Assembly: GCA_014804495.1 (NCBI GenBank)
Contig: JAAUZS010000055.1
Location: 1 to 20,271 of the forward strand
DNA length: 20,271 nucleotides
Reading direction: 5' to 3'
Source: Lachnospiraceae bacterium
GTDB lineage: Bacteria; Bacillota; Clostridia; Lachnospirales; Lachnospiraceae
Positions 2,778 through 18,531 of the stretch are shown in pieces. The position numbers and the translations under genes were made by a program. Within the stretch, counting starts at the first letter, position 1, and each line of letters begins with the position of its first letter. The notes beneath the pieces are model-generated. The model saw only the letters and a program-made list of their open reading frames with translations, had not been told where the DNA came from and did not search any database.

Positions 2778-3173
2778 GTGAAAACTCTTATTATATCGGT
2801 AGTGTTTTTAATATTCTTGTTCATATTTGTAAAAAACAAGCTTGAAAAAATCGGCATTATTGGCAAAAAGAAACCTGATAAAGATTCTTCTGAAAAGAAT
2901 AAGGATGCACAAGTTGTTCCTGTTTCAGATAATAACAGTCTTCTGGATGGCTATACCAGACATGATGTACATGTATTTGATTATAGCAAGTGCGAGTCAG
3001 AAACATACTTTGCAGGTCTTATAGATGCAAAGCTTTCCATTGTAGAAGCTGAGATGCAGGAAAAGGGATATCCTTACAGTATCAAGTATCTGGTCCTTAA
3101 TAATGCCATTGTGTGCATTGTGGAATACAAGATAAATAGTAACCGCGTATCCCTTAAGGAAGTAAAAGCCTAG
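2778..3173 (+). CDS. Membrane-anchored phage protein of unknown function (131 aa)
   Basis: The start is GTG 2778 behind GAAGAAGGT. An N-terminal hydrophobic helix (MKTLIISVVFLIFLFIFVKN, residues 1-20) is followed by a basic, then charged and Lys/Asp-rich linker (about 24-45) and a soluble domain (about 55-131) ending in YKINSNRVSLKEVKA. There is no clear signal-peptidase site, so it is probably a membrane anchor. No family is recognised. The gene sits directly behind palindrome site 1 and directly before the large non-coding hairpin, so it may be independently regulated. It could be an assembly or secretion accessory protein, but that is a guess. Confidence 0.5.
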   Translation: MKTLIISVVFLIFLFIFVKNKLEKIGIIGKKKPDKDSSEKNKDAQVVPVSDNNSLLDGYTRHDVHVFDYSKCESETYFAGLIDAKLSIVEAEMQEKGYPYSIKYLVLNNAIVCIVEYKINSNRVSLKEVKA

Positions 3174-3287: not shown

Positions 3288-3765
3288 GTCTTCCCTACTC
3301 CGGCGGTAAATCCGGCAGGCGGCGCGGACAACATAGAAAACATATACCATTCACATACATAAAACAATACAATACAGTGTGTACGTGTTAGGTGCAAAGG
3401 ATGTATGCCGTACAGCGTCGTAAGCGTTGTGTATATGTGCATAACTGCCTTGCATATGAAGGTGTGTATAACGTTGTGTGCAGGGTGTGGGTAACTCGGA
3501 GTTGTCCACACGCCTTGAATAAACCGCCTGTACTCCGCAACCTTCATTTTTGTTGTAGCCCTGTGTGGTCAACTCCGAGTTATCCATGCGCTGTGCATGA
3601 CGTTATGCATGCCTGAATAGGCAGTTATACACATATGCATGACGCCCAACGTACCGTAGGACAATACATCTTAGCAGCCAACACACTGCACAAAACAAGC
3701 TTTTCCGCCCGGCTGTGTGGGGTTGTCCGCGCCGCCTGCCGGATTTACCGACTAAGCAGGAAGAC
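3288..3765. repeat. Giant imperfect hairpin (about 480 bases), candidate complementary-strand origin or packaging signal
   Basis: The arms are nested and in register. GTCTTCC 3288-3294 pairs with 3759-3765. A perfect 29-base arm 3304-3332 pairs with 3722-3750. The 18 bases 3433-3450 pair with 3619-3636 with one mismatch. The 20 bases 3492-3511 pair with 3563-3582 with one mismatch. The remaining arm sequence is partly complementary, and the loop is about 3512-3562. In single-stranded viral DNA this would give a long duplex rod. Filamentous phages have imperfect hairpins as packaging signal and as priming sites, though far shorter. The function is inferred; the pairing is read directly from the sequence. 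Confidence 0.75.
3436..3633. promoter_or_regulatory. Cluster of DnaA-box-like 9-mers in the hairpin stem
   Basis: Three 9-mers match TTATNCACA exactly: 3436-3444 (-), 3463-3471 (-) and 3625-3633 (+). Near matches are 3486-3494 (-, TTACCCACA), 3502-3510 (+, TTGTCCACA), 3564-3572 (-, TTGACCACA), 3580-3588 (+, TTATCCATG) and 3603-3611 (+, TTATGCATG). Each box in the left arm faces a box-like 9-mer in the right arm when the hairpin is folded. DnaA boxes within a stem are known from the A-site of plasmid R6K, where DnaA loads the primosome on single-stranded DNA. A similar role here is inference. Confidence 0.5.
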
Positions 3766-3862: not shown

Positions 3863-4399
3863 ATGGAAAATGAAGAAGTAATAAGTGAATCTGAAACTGA
3901 AAACATTCAGGATTCTTCTTCGGAAGCTGTCCAGCAGGAAACTTCCACCGAAAATGAATCAACTGATAATGACAGTTCTGAAACTGATACAGACACTTCG
4001 GAAACTGTTTCTGAACCTTCCGGAGATAATGAAAAAGAGGATACCACTGACAGTCATAATGATGATATGTCTATCCCGACTCCGGAAGATGAGGAAAATG
4101 AAACATCTGTAGACACTGTATCGGGAAATTCTATAGAATCTTCCTCTGATAACCAGTCTTCCGGTTCTGTAAATTATGAATCCTTAGACGGTGTAAATGA
4201 AGCTCTTGCGCTAATCAGGTCGGAAAATTCTGATTATTATAAAGAAACTTTATTAATACAGGAAAACATGCAGATAGAAATGCAGCATATTTCTTATTTA
4301 TCAGAAATGGCTATCGCATTTATGGCTGTTATCGGTTTCTTTGTAGTAATGCACGTTGGGGGTAAACTGGTTTCGTATTTCTTTGAAAGGATGAAGTAA
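3863..4399 (+). CDS. Acidic Ser/Thr-rich protein with C-terminal membrane anchor (178 aa)
   Basis: Residues 1-110 are low-complexity, dominated by Glu, Asp, Ser, Thr and Asn, with no signal peptide. Residues about 111-148 look helical and amphipathic, and about 149-171 form one transmembrane helix (AIAFMAVIGFFVVMHVGG), followed by a short basic end (FFERMK). The gene leads the coat cluster behind a canonical AAGGAGT site. By position it could be a minor virion protein, or a cytoplasmic tail that handles DNA or host proteins at the assembly site. No family is recognised. With a C-terminal helix it is tail-anchored; the acidic part would stay in the cytoplasm if the basic end also does not cross. 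This topology is unsettled. Confidence 0.55.
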   Translation: MENEEVISESETENIQDSSSEAVQQETSTENESTDNDSSETDTDTSETVSEPSGDNEKEDTTDSHNDDMSIPTPEDEENETSVDTVSGNSIESSSDNQSSGSVNYESLDGVNEALALIRSENSDYYKETLLIQENMQIEMQHISYLSEMAIAFMAVIGFFVVMHVGGKLVSYFFERMK

Positions 4400-5681: not shown

Positions 5682-5888
5682 ATGAATTTGGAAAATATTT
5701 TAATTTATTTTTCTTTGGGTATTATTGTTTATTTTATAGCTGATTTTATTGATACAAAAATTATTACGTTTATGTTTAAAATGTACGATAAGAATACATT
5801 AATAACGGATATTATATGGTTTCTTGTTGGAACATTTTTTATTACATGTTCTTTTTGTGGAATTTATTTTTTATATTTTAAGAAATAG
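5682..5888 (+). CDS. Small two-span membrane protein (68 aa)
   Basis: ATG at 5682 is preceded by TTAGGTGA. Two hydrophobic segments (about residues 5-22, NILIYFSLGIIVYFIADF, and about 44-66, IIWFLVGTFFITCSFCGIYF) flank a short loop with Lys and Asp. The end is FKK. No family is recognised. Composition is very AT-rich like its neighbours 5286-6178. A weak hairpin (ACCTGC 5911-5916, GCAGGT 5926-5931) follows. Confidence 0.5.
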   Translation: MNLENILIYFSLGIIVYFIADFIDTKIITFMFKMYDKNTLITDIIWFLVGTFFITCSFCGIYFLYFKK

Positions 5889-5983
5889 CTTCTGCAAATT
5901 TCATCAAAAAACCTGCATTTTTTTCGCAGGTGCTTAACTGAATAATGAAAACTTGCTATACTTCCCTAAAAGGGGGTGATTAC

Positions 5984-6178
5984 TTGGGTTTGCTTTTAGT
6001 CATTGCCGTGTTATTTATAGCACTTGCACTGTGTAATAAGTATTCTCCAGAGGACGCAAAAACGTTAAGATGGATTATAAAAATACTTGTTATTATATTT
6101 TGCGCTATTCTTATTTTCCTTTTGGTAATATTAATTATAGCTATGATTAGTCCAATTATAATTTCCTCAATGTTTTAG
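5984..6178 (+). CDS. Small two-span membrane protein, probable TTG start (64 aa)
   Basis: An in-frame ATG at 5945 has no ribosome binding site, whereas AGGGGGTGA (5971-5979) stands 4 bases ahead of TTG 5984, so the shorter form is chosen (ATG 5945 would add 13 residues). The product is nearly all membrane: about residues 2-18 (GLLLVIAVLFIALALCN) and about 30-60 (IKILVIIFCAILIFLLVILI and onward), with a polar loop NKYSPEDAKTLR between. No family is recognised. Its stop TAG forms the first base of the stem of the terminator that follows. Confidence 0.5.
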   Translation: MGLLLVIAVLFIALALCNKYSPEDAKTLRWIIKILVIIFCAILIFLLVILIIAMISPIIISSMF

Positions 6179-8535: not shown

Positions 8536-9276
8536 ATGATTAATTTTTTCACTGGAAGACCGCGTAACGGTAAATCTTTGCATATGGCTATGATTATCTA
8601 TAAGGAAATGAAAAAAGGAAAACATGTTATAGCAAACTTTGAAATTAACGAACATATTTTTGATAAATTCAAAGAAAAGCATCCGGATAAGCTCGGCAAA
8701 TTCATATGCATGAAAAATATCCACTGGCTTAATAACTCTTATATTAATACTATTGATGCCAATGGAAAATATAAGCCGCCCCCAAAGGGCAGATATTCAT
8801 ACATAGAAGGTCTTTACGGCTTTGCTAAACAATTCCTTAAACGCAATAACAGGGGACAGATAATAGAACATCAGGCTATTGTTGTACTTGATGAGTGTCA
8901 GGAATTATTTAACTCCAGAAGTTGGAATCGTCAAGACCGCCTTGAATGGTGTTCATTTTTCAGACAACATGGTAAATATGGCTATGATGTCTATTTGATT
9001 TCCCAAGATGACAAGGTAATCGATAAGCAGATTCGTAATATCTTACAGTATGAATTTGAGCATAGATGTGTAAACAATTACAAGTTTTTTGGCAAGCTTC
9101 TCGGCATAATGGCAGGCGGCAAGCTTTTCTGCTGTGTCCAGAGAATGTACGGAGTAAAGTCAAAAGATGCCAAAATAAAAAGCACATTTTTTACTGGTCA
9201 GACTATGTTCTATGAATTTTATGACAGCTACGAGACTTTCGACAGGGATACTTTGGAATCATTACCGGACCCATGA
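8536..9276 (+). CDS. zot: Zot/pI-family filamentous phage assembly ATPase (246 aa)
   Basis: Walker A is GRPRNGKS at residues 7-14 and Walker B is AIVVLDE at 114-120. The Zot-typical stretch FFRQHGKYGYDVYLISQDDK (141-160), followed by VIDKQIR, is intact. These mark the Zot (zona occludens toxin) / gpI family, the inner-membrane motor that threads phage DNA into the coat during extrusion. Family members usually have one membrane helix after the ATPase domain and a periplasmic tail. Here the protein ends soon after the domain, with only a weakly hydrophobic stretch (about 183-202, KFFGKLLGIMAGGKLFCCVQ), and no obvious large outer domain. That fits a Gram-positive-type cell without outer membrane and the absence of a pIV secretin. 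Start behind GAGGGAAAAAGAT. This is the firmest inovirus marker in the window. Confidence 0.88.
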   Translation: MINFFTGRPRNGKSLHMAMIIYKEMKKGKHVIANFEINEHIFDKFKEKHPDKLGKFICMKNIHWLNNSYINTIDANGKYKPPPKGRYSYIEGLYGFAKQFLKRNNRGQIIEHQAIVVLDECQELFNSRSWNRQDRLEWCSFFRQHGKYGYDVYLISQDDKVIDKQIRNILQYEFEHRCVNNYKFFGKLLGIMAGGKLFCCVQRMYGVKSKDAKIKSTFFTGQTMFYEFYDSYETFDRDTLESLPDP

Positions 9277-9555: not shown

Positions 9556-10353
9556 ATGCAATATAACTGCAGGTTGTATGAATACCCTGCAGGTCAGCAT
9601 GTCACTATTTATAAAAAGACTATATCGCGTAAAGAAAAAGATATATCAGATTCAAAGAAAACCACAAACAAAACACAAAAAAATGAAACTACTGACAATG
9701 AAACAAATATATTAAGAGAGAATGAAGAACGCTCGGAAGAATCCATAGAACATAGTAAAAGCGTCTCACTCTCACGTACCAAAAACAGTATATATAATAT
9801 AGCACGCTCTAATGAATGGCAATGGTTTATCACTCTTACATTTGACAGAAATAACACTGATTCAAGCGATTATGACATGATAACCTGCAAGCTTCATACA
9901 TTCTTAAACAATTTACAGACTCGTAAATGCCGGAACATGAAATATATCATAGTTCCTGAACTGCATAAGGATAAGCAGCATTATCATTTTCATGGACTAC
10001 TTAGCGGCGTTGAAAATCTCCGCTTCTGCTTTTCAGGGCATTTTGACAATAACGATAATCCGGTATATAACATAAAAGACTGGAAGTATGGTTTTACTAC
10101 TGCAACGCAAGTCAAGGATTCTCAAAAGGCATCTAGTTATATAACAAAATATATAACTAAGGATACCGATATAAAACTAAAAAACAAAAGGCGCTATATG
10201 TGTTCCCGAAACATTGAACGCGCTAAAGCAACATATCACGTAATTGATGAAGAAGATTTTTTAAATACGTATTCAGACAGGATAACATGGGCTAAAAACA
10301 TCAAGGTAGCTCCGGCACATCAAAGTATAAATTATTATGAATTAACCTATTGA
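9556..10353 (+). CDS. HUH rolling-circle replication initiator (265 aa)
   Basis: The three HUH endonuclease motifs appear in order: motif 1 FITLTF (91-96); motif 2 HYHFHGLL (142-149), the metal-binding His cluster; and motif 3 SYITKYITK (194-202), whose Tyr195-x3-Tyr199-x2-Lys202 matches the two-tyrosine YxxxYxxK site of the phiX174 gpA superfamily. Two tyrosines allow repeated cleavage and rejoining in rolling-circle replication, as expected for a phage initiator. The N-terminal 20-75 region is charged and low-complexity, probably disordered. Start ATG 9556 follows AAGGGGAAAAAAT. It is transcribed after zot through the presumed origin and ends at a clear terminator. The protein would nick the plus strand, probably just upstream of its own gene. 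Confidence 0.85.
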   Translation: MQYNCRLYEYPAGQHVTIYKKTISRKEKDISDSKKTTNKTQKNETTDNETNILRENEERSEESIEHSKSVSLSRTKNSIYNIARSNEWQWFITLTFDRNNTDSSDYDMITCKLHTFLNNLQTRKCRNMKYIIVPELHKDKQHYHFHGLLSGVENLRFCFSGHFDNNDNPVYNIKDWKYGFTTATQVKDSQKASSYITKYITKDTDIKLKNKRRYMCSRNIERAKATYHVIDEEDFLNTYSDRITWAKNIKVAPAHQSINYYELTY

Positions 10354-10354
10354 A

Positions 10355-10380
10355 AAGAAGGCTGACAACCTTCTTTTTTA
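10355..10380 (+). terminator. Rho-independent terminator after rep
   Basis: AAGAAGG (10355-10361) pairs with CCTTCTT (10369-10375), with a 7-base loop and a T-run continuing to 10379. It separates the phage replication/assembly transcript from the transposase gene, which has its own promoter. Confidence 0.8.
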
Positions 10381-10422
10381 TTGTCAAAAATTCCTGTTTT
10401 TATGCTACTTTTTCTGCATTTA

Positions 10423-10451
10423 TTGAAACGCAAACACATGTTTGGTATAAT
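10423..10451 (+). promoter_or_regulatory. SigA-type promoter of the transposase gene
   Basis: TTGAAA (10423-10428), 17-base spacer, TATAAT (10446-10451): a near-consensus vegetative promoter. The spacer carries CAAACA-CA-TGTTTG (10431-10444), a looser version of the CAAACGTTTG core of the palindrome found just downstream (10466-10481). A protein bound to these two sites would cover promoter and start point, which suggests repression. Confidence 0.7.
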
Positions 10452-10465
10452 AATTATAGGGGAAA

Positions 10466-10481
10466 TTCCAAACGTTTGGAA
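10466..10481. promoter_or_regulatory. Perfect palindrome TTCCAAACGTTTGGAA, site 3 (left of transposase)
   Basis: This is a perfect 16-base palindrome 15 bases after the TATAAT box and 27 bases ahead of the transposase start. With the five following bases (AAATA then T) it forms a 21-base inverted repeat with 11540-11560 on the other side of the gene, so it can be read as the left terminal repeat of an IS30-type unit or as an operator. Confidence 0.65.
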
Positions 10482-10508
10482 AATATGAAAAAGATATAGG
10501 TGTAAGAT

Positions 10509-11540
10509 ATGGGGAAACACATAACAGAAATTGAACGCTATAAAATTGAAACTATGCTAAAAGACGGAATCAAGCCATGTGATATAGCTGTTCGGCTTGG
10601 AAAGCATTTTACTACAATCTATAAGGAAATTGAAAAGGGGACTGTTGAACTTCTCAATTCTGATCTTACATATAGAAAAGAATATTGTGCGGATGCAGCG
10701 CAAAGAATAACCAACGAAAGAAAAGCTAATAAGGGGCGTGATTTAAAGGTCGGCAATGATTACGCTTTTGTAAAGCGTGTTGAATATCTTATCGGTGAAC
10801 TGCATTATTCTCCATATGCAGCTGTTCAGGATATCAGAAAGAATAAACCATGTAAAACAGACGTATGTAAAACTACACTTTACAGTTATATAGATAAGGG
10901 CATCTTTTTAAACATATCTAATAAAAACCTTTATTCTAAGAGTAAACAAAAAAATGAATATGATAAGGTTGAACGTCCATCACTTAAAAAACTTAAATCA
11001 AAGACTATAGAAGACCGCCCAAAGGATATATATAATCGTGATGAGTATGGACATTGGGAAATGGACACGGTTTATAGCGGCAAAAACAAAAGTAAAAGCT
11101 GTCTTCTGGTCCTTACTGAACGCTGCACACGTGATGAGTATCTCTTACTTATGCCGGATAGAACTTTAGAAAGTACTATAAAAACAATTAATAACCTTGA
11201 AAAAACATTAGGCTATGAAGTTTTCAGTAATCGTTTTAAAACAATTACCTGTGACAACGGCTCTGAGTTCGGGGACTCTTCCGGCATAGAAACAAGCTGC
11301 ATATATCCTGATAAGCAGCGTACGCAAGTTTATTTCTGTCATCCTTATTCTTCATTTGAGCGTGGCTCTAATGAGAACGCTAATAAACTTATAAGGCATT
11401 GGATTCCAAAAGGTGAAGATATAAGCAAATATGATGATGAGTATATACAATTCATTCAGGACTGGATTAATAATTACCCTCGGGAACTGTTCAGTGGTCT
11501 TTCATCTAATGAATATAAAGCATCTCTAAAAATATCCTGA
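10509..11540 (+). CDS. IS30-family DDE transposase, probable phage integrase (343 aa)
   Basis: An N-terminal helix-turn-helix (about residues 1-45, with IKPCDIAVRLGKHFTTIYKE) recalls the IS30 HTH. The catalytic triad is visible: D186 in HWEMDTV, D249 in ITCDNGSEF, and E284 in SSFERGSNENANKLIRHW, with the ERGxNEN signature of IS30 and about 34 residues between the last two. The length is normal for the family and no frame is broken. The enzyme would cut and join element ends; IS30 enzymes favour palindromic targets or other terminal repeats. No other recombinase exists in the block, and some Spiroplasma inoviruses (SpV1 group) also carry IS30-type transposases, so it may integrate the phage. 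It has its own promoter, a ribosome binding site AGGTG, and a terminator. A separate insertion sequence that landed in the phage is the alternative. Confidence 0.88.
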   Translation: MGKHITEIERYKIETMLKDGIKPCDIAVRLGKHFTTIYKEIEKGTVELLNSDLTYRKEYCADAAQRITNERKANKGRDLKVGNDYAFVKRVEYLIGELHYSPYAAVQDIRKNKPCKTDVCKTTLYSYIDKGIFLNISNKNLYSKSKQKNEYDKVERPSLKKLKSKTIEDRPKDIYNRDEYGHWEMDTVYSGKNKSKSCLLVLTERCTRDEYLLLMPDRTLESTIKTINNLEKTLGYEVFSNRFKTITCDNGSEFGDSSGIETSCIYPDKQRTQVYFCHPYSSFERGSNENANKLIRHWIPKGEDISKYDDEYIQFIQDWINNYPRELFSGLSSNEYKASLKIS

Positions 11541-18301: not shown

Positions 18302-18531
18302 GGGCGGATTGCACAAAATGTTCGCTTGCGCCTGACTTGCGAATATGGATTTTCTAAATATTCCGACTAAGTTGTGAATACGGACGCAACCGCCCGCTAT
18401 TCGCCGTCCGGGCTCAGAGCGGGCTTTTCGGGACATCCATGTCCCGAAATTGCTGGACATCTAACCGGAATATTAAGAAAATCTCATATTCTACAGTAAG
18501 GCACTTCGAGAACATTTTGTGCAATCCGCCC
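18302..18531. repeat. 230-base nested hairpin element
   Basis: The outer 22-base arms (18302-18323 and 18510-18531) are perfectly complementary. A second pair (18341-18365 with 18466-18491) is nearly so. The centre holds CCCGCT/AGCGGG (18393-18398, 18418-18423) and a perfect TTCGGGACAT-CC-ATGTCCCGAA hairpin (18427-18448). It may be a small non-autonomous mobile repeat or a structured RNA. No coding frame is convincing. Confidence 0.6.

Follow-up and report, generated by a model that had tools for sequence, protein, structure and literature searches.

A strand-specific hairpin with paired DnaA-box-like sites in a filamentous prophage and on conjugative elements of gut Clostridia: a candidate single-strand initiation site

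An intergenic gap of a filamentous prophage in a Lachnospiraceae bacterium contains a very long hairpin, the core of which is, judged from its match to a covariance model, one member of a family of hairpins of about 155 nt residing mainly on other mobile elements. According to the computational data, members of this family fold preferentially on one strand, show covariation in the stem, are homologous to each other, carry DnaA-box-like sites and keep a nearly constant orientation relative to transfer genes. In our best reading they represent a site that resembles the A-site or an sso, has its boxes in pairs and occurs both in a filamentous phage and on conjugative elements. We assign a probability of about 0.5 to the assumption that synthesis of the complementary strand is initiated at the folded core on single-stranded DNA, with DnaA as the probable reader. 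The first-pass annotation, which described a giant phage hairpin with DnaA-box-like sites in its stem, was partly confirmed: the phage, the single-strand hairpin and the facing boxes stand, while the view as a whole was too narrow, as the hairpin is not phage-specific.

The prophage hairpin and its counterpart in a related locus

The window, i.e. the whole stretch of DNA analysed (20,271 bp), is a whole contig (C55 of genome G000). Its first 11,700 or so positions resemble a filamentous prophage of inovirus type, as indicated by two genes of the forward strand, both assigned by Pfam and PHROG: a Zot/protein I homologue at 8536–9276 (PF05707; PHROG for protein I of M13) and a rolling-circle Rep at 9556–10353 (PF23343; PHROG for rolling-circle initiation). 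Inoviridae are recognized by these two genes together with small coat genes, and the finding of Zot and Rep bears out the earlier assignment to filamentous phages. A DDE transposase (families rve, HTH_38 and phrog_4646), which we take to be IS30, is encoded further downstream at 10509–11540 (+). IS30-like transposases occur 3′ of rep in many inovirus loci, including the window, L035, L036, L039, L040 and others, and may serve these inoviruses as integrase. A 54-aa ORF kept in inovirus records L035 and L036 is a putative small coat gene. The host part of the contig contains a TwoAYGGAY RNA (RF01731, 118.9 bits) at 18334–18498 on the reverse strand.

The hairpin lies between a 131-aa ORF on its left (2778–3173, +) and a 178-aa ORF on its right (3863–4399, +), both used as synteny markers. 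Folded as ssDNA, the 478 bases of 3288–3765 reached −121.4 kcal/mol, whereas 100 dinucleotide shuffles averaged −68.0 (sd 4.6; z = −11.7) and none of them folded as well, so that the hairpin described earlier is real. As a stable structure the proposed single long stem was retained, while as one continuous stem it was not: there are two nested stems, and 21 of the 37 pairs between them are broken in the related locus L039. The outer stem, delineated by the ssDNA fold and by pair comparison with L039, has its arms at 3288–3332 and 3722–3765 (+), and the core is paired approximately as 3410–3515/3563–3652. Over its full length (3410–3652, +) the core matches covariance model R1 of the mobile-element family with 114.2 bits (E 6.6e-27) on the plus strand and with 41.4 bits on the minus strand. 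The apical region (3516–3562, +) exceeds the family length and is identical to L039 at 36 of 47 aligned positions.

For comparison, 24 other zot-bearing loci (L035–L058), several of them cut by contig ends, were used. The hairpin was found in one of them, L039, which belongs to the same genus and has it between the same two genes; this copy matches R1 with 94.3 bits on the plus strand and 47.5 on the minus strand. Measured by the refuting condition of the first-pass annotation, i.e. relatives lacking boxes or stem, its absence from the other 23 of 24 loci, several of which are truncated, speaks in part against that annotation. Identity to L039 amounts to 81 and 84% in the core arms, 77% in the apical part, 57–58% in the outer stem, 52–59% between the stems, 74% in the downstream flank and, over 30 aligned positions only, 73% in the upstream flank. 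Since the downstream flank and the apical part reach 74 and 77%, the core arms surpass them in conservation to a moderate degree. Comparison of 90 core pairs revealed 66 identical, 6 changed on both sides, 4 changed on one side, 12 broken and 2 falling in gaps, while for 42 pairs starting in 3288–3335 (three of them local) the corresponding numbers were 11, 3, 2, 3 and 23.

In locus L040, the Zot, Rep and transposase of which are 68–70% identical to those of the window, neither such a hairpin nor an exact DnaA box was found. Three exact boxes within 250 nt are present only in the window and L039 among these loci; L050 has two. Bajarodino virus 74 (L035, a circular inovirus record) has in the corresponding gap an unrelated 277-nt hairpin (5709–5985) without boxes, and in 14 of the 24 inovirus loci the 400-nt segment of lowest energy spans the end of zot or comes right after it (for instance in L042, which has a strong hairpin there at 10317–10640). 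The strong hairpins of L035 and L042 were considered as counterparts and rejected, as there is no exact box in either locus. Searches of IMG/VR by protein with Zot and Rep as queries gave no close relatives, and the exact right-arm pattern gave no match there. Two matches to a looser pattern were attributed to chance: L328 has no model match, L329 scores 14 bits, and their genes resemble, by eye, those of other phages.

DnaA-box-like sites in the stem

Both the exact and the near matches to the DnaA box, to which attention had been drawn earlier, exceed chance within the hairpin. Three exact TTATNCACA boxes (at 3436 and 3463 on the minus strand and at 3625 on the plus strand) were registered against 0.05 expected. 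None of 5000 shuffled sequences contained three and four of 5000 contained two, the latter figure being fairer, since facing boxes are not independent. Allowing up to one mismatch, there are seven boxes against 0.86 expected (0 of 1000 shuffles). The whole window with 32 such sites against 26.9 expected is not enriched, and thus enrichment is confined to the hairpin.

All four proposed facings (3436/3625, 3463/3603, 3486/3580 and 3502/3564) are paired in the minimum-energy fold. Pair 1 combines exact boxes TTATGCACA in the left arm (3436–3444, −) and TTATACACA in the right arm (3625–3633, +), both conserved in L039. Pair 2 sets exact box TTATACACA of the left arm (3463–3471, −), which is TTATGCACA in L039, against box-like TTATGCATG of the right arm (3603–3611, +), and pair 3 is made of box-like TTACCCACA (left arm, 3486–3494, −) and TTATCCATG (right arm, 3580–3588, +), again conserved in L039. 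In pair 4 box-like TTGTCCACA (3502–3510, +) faces TTGACCACA (3564–3572, −). Pairs 1, 2 and 3 are kept in L039, while pair 4 retains much of its pairing there and loses the box sequence on both sides. Thus, the idea of four facing pairs is sustained by the fold and weakened at the level of sequence: each of the right-arm sites at 3564, 3580 and 3603 departs from the box by two mismatches, and pair 4 is not preserved as boxes.

In the family as a whole exact boxes were found on the plus strand (right arm) of 35, on the minus strand (left arm) of 30 and in both arms of 27 out of 45 copies. Its inner box-like sites consist of GTGGGTAAC facing GTTATCCAT, with conserved G·T wobbles. For box pairs 2 and 3 these wobbles fall inside the right-arm box (GTTATCCAT), which is poor for a standard DnaA box, and the inner sites are therefore weaker candidates for DnaA binding. 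There are also further invariant words, for instance GTTTGCAG, that are not DnaA-like.

The candidate boxes were compared with those surrounding dnaA of related bacteria. In the dnaA neighbourhoods of five relatives (5 × 5,001 bases) 16 exact TTATNCACA boxes were counted against 1.1 in shuffled sequences (0 of 300 shuffles). The variant GTTATNCACA accounts for 12 of these 16 boxes and for all three exact boxes of the hairpin. Judged by the dnaA-flanking boxes of five relatives, the exact hairpin boxes conform to the host consensus, as would be expected of an A-site of the ABC primosome, known from plasmid R6K. In the own genome, represented by an incomplete assembly, dnaA was not found.

A hairpin family on mobile elements

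With the core as a query, a DNA search in 77 genomes of the genus gave four matching genomes, two of which, besides the own genome and that of L039, have the match at non-phage places. With the 155-nt hairpin of one such place (L068), situated near mobilisation genes, 34 of 294 related genomes were found to match, counting the own genome, and nine of ten genomes searched in depth contain from one to nine matches. Model R1 was built from 36 copies, neither phage copy being among them. In a class-wide sample, where the model search was run with stricter filters, 7 of 391 genomes matched, including the own one. A pattern scan of genomes of named species gave at least 120 stretches of gut Clostridia with the family hairpin; all those listed are recognized by R1 with an E value no higher than 0.001, the score being below 50 bits for six, and some of the listed loci are the same copies from which R1 was built. 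Taxa recorded for 80 of these at least 120 matches are mainly Lachnospiraceae, with Oscillospiraceae, Blautia, Ruminococcus, Roseburia, Flintibacter and Acutalibacter also present. A mobile-element copy of 181 bases gave no match in a plasmid collection and one record in a phage collection, which resembles by eye a fragment of a conjugative element with a TraG-like gene. Two patterns, the first of which would not fit the phage copies, gave on viral contigs one true copy, located on a contig with conjugation-like genes, and two chance matches. A mini-version, in which the family ends enclose a short different stem, was observed in two genomes of different families (L194, 7262–7324; L195, 7677–7739).

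Compensatory changes in the stem, named as a check by the first-pass annotation, are evident both in the core of L039 (six pairs changed on both sides, see above) and in the family. The alignment included 36 of 45 collected copies, picked by hand to cover their spread, copies cut by contig ends or containing N having been left out of the 45. Standard pairs occupy 97.9% of alignment cells against 91.2% after shuffling (0 of 500 shuffles), and 18 of 47 pairs are changed on both sides against 9.0 (0/500), which corresponds to 100 cells against 23.2 (0/500). The covariation score is 0.260 against 0.135 in shuffled alignments (0/500) and at most 0.055 for slid structures; further pair types number 49 against 42.6 (2/500). 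As the copies are related by descent, these counts overstate the number of independent events.

When each strand was folded separately, the plus strand appeared more stable in all 47 sequences (45 copies and two phage hairpins), and therefore the fold belongs to one single strand, DNA or RNA, and not to a duplex palindrome. This agrees with the difference in R1 scores between the strands of the prophage core and substantiates the single-strand-specific structure proposed earlier. In the same 47 sequences G·T pairs number 495 on the plus strand and 35 on the minus strand, the bias being mild in the two phage copies (14 versus 8 and 11 versus 7). At the consensus level 10 of 47 pairs are G·T and no pair is A·C; the RNAalifold structure used here favours G·T by construction, while separate folding of the strands does not.

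Genomic contexts were analysed for 126 occurrences from among the scan matches listed, reduced to 120 unique contexts; the scan loci are about 8 kb long or shorter, so that transfer genes further away are missed. As exemplar neighbours we took genes recognized by Pfam as relaxase, NikA-like/MobC, T4SS coupling protein (TraG), DUF3801, RepA_N, ArdC N-terminal domain and serine recombinase. Among the listed matches 92 of 120 contexts have at least one of them and 72 contain conjugation or mobilisation genes; 28 have no exemplar gene, 11 of these being inspected by eye. Genes antisense to the plus strand of the hairpin were 39 of 39 for relaxase, 42 of 42 for MobC, 11 of 11 for DUF3801 and 29 of 33 for TraG in the 120 listed contexts. 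In the first set of 45 contexts, which overlaps with the 120 and cannot be added to them, the corresponding ratios were 18/19, 24/25, 7/7 and 12/14. The exceptions are a relaxase in L126 and MobC in L160 in the set of 45, and TraG in four of 33 cases in the listed 120. The position of the hairpin varies: it is found close to the relaxase 3′ end, 3–5 kb away on the other side or, in a few contexts, 3–5 kb away on the near side, and the orientation to the relaxase is kept. In one class of contexts the relaxase gene terminates some 190 bp from the left hairpin edge, which is about 40 bp beyond the right foot. Of eight listed loci with at least two strong hairpins, two (L222 and L265) hold them in opposite orientations.

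Filamentous phages package the coding strand, and the folding strand of the phage copies is the coding and presumably the virion strand. On conjugative elements the strand antisense to relaxosome genes is expected to be the transferred one, because such genes are typically situated close to oriT, within the lagging region (PMC11541004). Based on this, the folding strand would be the transferred strand of conjugative elements.

Several features of the neighbourhood were recorded along the way. A 126-aa ORF without Pfam family (C3; L135, 14123–14503) shares the strand of the hairpin and is separated from its left side by about 140 nt; similar ORFs occur in 15 of the 120 listed contexts. A pst phosphate operon, labelled by eye, follows the hairpin in L101, L102, L103, L105 and L108.

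Possible function, rival explanations and known systems

If the core is a single-strand initiation site, the plus strand of the phage would fold upon entry into the cell or upon displacement by rolling-circle replication, and the double-stranded stem would present DnaA boxes on both arms at distances of about 22–27 bp. Host DnaA would bind the stem, helicase and primase would be loaded and the complementary strand synthesised; on conjugative elements the same hairpin would act on the transferred strand. The virion or transferred identity of the folded strand, the priming function and the role of DnaA are what we infer. The wider proposal, namely that gut Clostridia possess a natural single-strand origin which depends on DnaA, a kind of two-sided A-site, common to a filamentous phage lineage and to integrative conjugative or mobilisable elements, is offered tentatively, as we consider it less probable than its opposite. 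Several observations stand against the initiation reading: family copies that lie inside DDE transposons, hairpins of opposite orientation within two of the eight listed multi-hairpin loci, presence in only one of 24 other inovirus loci, exact boxes in both arms of only 27 out of 45 copies, as well as module junctions and one precise unit end. To these are added the exceptions to the orientation rule, the mild G·T bias of the phage copies, the wobbles inside box pairs 2 and 3, the invariant words that are not DnaA-like, the moderate excess in conservation of the core and the 28 of 120 listed contexts with no exemplar gene.

The main rival, which seems to us rather unlikely, is a mobile or recombining palindrome, i.e. 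a REP/MITE-like element, an attC-like cassette site or the end of an ssDNA transposon, spreading in non-coding gaps without any role in replication. In many pairs of copies homology ends 20–40 nt to the left and 5–10 or about 100 nt to the right of the hairpin, different modules meet at it, and left and right neighbours are shuffled. A shared tail motif is present in 24 of 120 listed contexts, and in 22 of these 24 it has a precise right end, reaching ..ACATGAGCAT, after which the sequences differ, some flanks being recurrent. In this tailed class (L207, 408–579 and right flank) the hairpin continues into some 100–130 nt that end at ..ACATGAGCAT, a point that may mark where an inserted unit stops; in some cases such a unit lies immediately upstream of an element's own hairpin. 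Several copies have at the hairpin foot an insertion-sequence-like end with AAGTTTGGATT; such repeats were observed on either side in L109, L157, L164, L165, L167, L170, L255, L278 and L316, as if the hairpin were a target of a AAGTTTGGATT-bearing insertion sequence. Family copies also reside within DDE transposons: six matches in genome G374 belong to an IS240-like (Pfam) transposon of about 1.97 kb as far as contigs reach (L186–L191, two copies with an internal gap), and two in G618 belong to a transposon of about 2.7 kb (L192–L193), for which "IS21-like" is our own label. In both the hairpin is on the transposase strand, and we know of no transferred single strand for DDE transposons. The opposite orientations in L222 and L265 are also easier to reconcile with a mobile palindrome. 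However, it does not predict that the hairpin is nearly always oriented in the same way to relaxase and MobC, whatever their position, and many copies in random orientation, typical for REP/RAYT and MITE, were not found: copy number is low (one to nine in nine of ten genomes) and the only true copy on viral contigs, searched with two patterns the first of which is unfit for phage copies, accompanies conjugation genes. In 38 contexts inspected by eye no transposase was a constant neighbour, serine recombinase being frequent.

The second rival, which we find improbable, assumes that the plus strand is transcribed and the long hairpin is a regulatory or structural RNA. Covariation and wobble pairs suit RNA as well as ssDNA, the right flank is T-rich in many copies, and in the two DDE transposons hairpin and transposase share the strand. 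Nevertheless, no Rfam match at the gathering threshold was obtained over the window hairpin or in six mobile-element loci; homology commonly stops 20–40 nt upstream, which leaves little room for a shared promoter; left neighbour genes show no common direction into the hairpin (36 plus and 41 minus in 77 contexts); and an RNA role gives no reason to expect the constant antisense relation to relaxase. A single-stranded promoter or an RNA-polymerase-primed origin of Frpo or ssoA type instead of a DnaA site would follow the same strand logic, and ssDNA promoters are common on conjugative elements (PMC11541004, PMC9849209). We nevertheless give it little credence, as no −35/−10 (sigma-A) match in the stems of 47 sequences goes beyond mononucleotide shuffles, the best being 9/12 in 10 of 47 and 8 or 7 in the rest. 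A phage packaging signal, for which the M13 packaging hairpin is a model, is in our opinion very improbable. It would be in line with the great length and stability of the hairpin, with its place in the gap that precedes the presumed structural genes and with three outer-stem pairs changed on both sides in L039, but the core is common to conjugative elements, which package nothing, and 14 of the 24 other inovirus loci have their segment of lowest energy at or right behind the zot end instead. The outer stem is a phage addition and, like the fourth box pair, lies outside the shared family; it may have a role in packaging or protection.

A search of the open-access literature (one library) revealed no description of this hairpin or of ssDNA-to-dsDNA conversion by conjugative elements or filamentous phages of gut Clostridia. 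The conserved strand-specific hairpin in at least 120 stretches is a concrete candidate for such conversion. If single-strand initiation by DnaA is true, it links phage and conjugation biology, implies DnaA acting away from oriC and offers a means of telling which strand of an unannotated element is transferred; mobile DNAs of different kinds would then establish themselves by recruiting the initiator of the chromosome to their folded single strand. Even without a priming role, the strong covariation and the nearly constant relaxase orientation of the family need explanation.

Among known systems, REP/RAYT, MITE and integron attC are repeated palindromes of mobile DNA, some of them single-strand-specific. 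The family resembles them in its repeated palindromes at module junctions and, for some, in strand specificity, and differs in having few copies, nearly constant relaxase orientation and, by eye, no constant transposase. M13 has an intergenic minus-strand origin and packaging hairpins, and with these the prophage structure shares its place in an intergenic region of a filamentous phage, differing in DnaA-like boxes, length, homology to conjugative elements and genome position. Like Frpo and ssi sites, it is an ssDNA hairpin expected on the transferred strand, but unlike them its −35/−10 matches do not exceed chance (PMC11541004, PMC9849209). One-strand-specific structure, characteristic of sso and ssi, is seen here in the greater stability of the plus strand in all sequences folded. 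The hairpins occur on phage and conjugative elements in nearly constant orientation, and also on DDE transposons and in two loci of mixed orientation. The experimentally tested sso1 of ICEBs1 is orientation-specific and located directly downstream of the relaxase gene (PMC4595007). Likeness to it consists in a strand-specific structured site near the relaxase 3′ end (one class here) on integrative conjugative elements, whereas sso1 has three predicted stem-loops and resembles plasmid sso's (PMC4595007), and here there is one long hairpin with DnaA-like boxes. The precedent invoked by the first-pass annotation, a DnaA box in an ssDNA hairpin directing helicase loading, is indeed on record: at the A-site hairpin of the E. 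coli system DnaA loads DnaB on SSB-coated ssDNA (PMC6127211). By sequence and fold the present hairpin likewise has DnaA-box-like sites in the stem of an ssDNA structure, comparable with the A-site and its proposed DnaA-directed helicase loading. In the E. coli system one DnaA box is present on the A-site template (PMC6127211), while here repeated putative boxes face each other on both arms in mobile elements of Clostridia.
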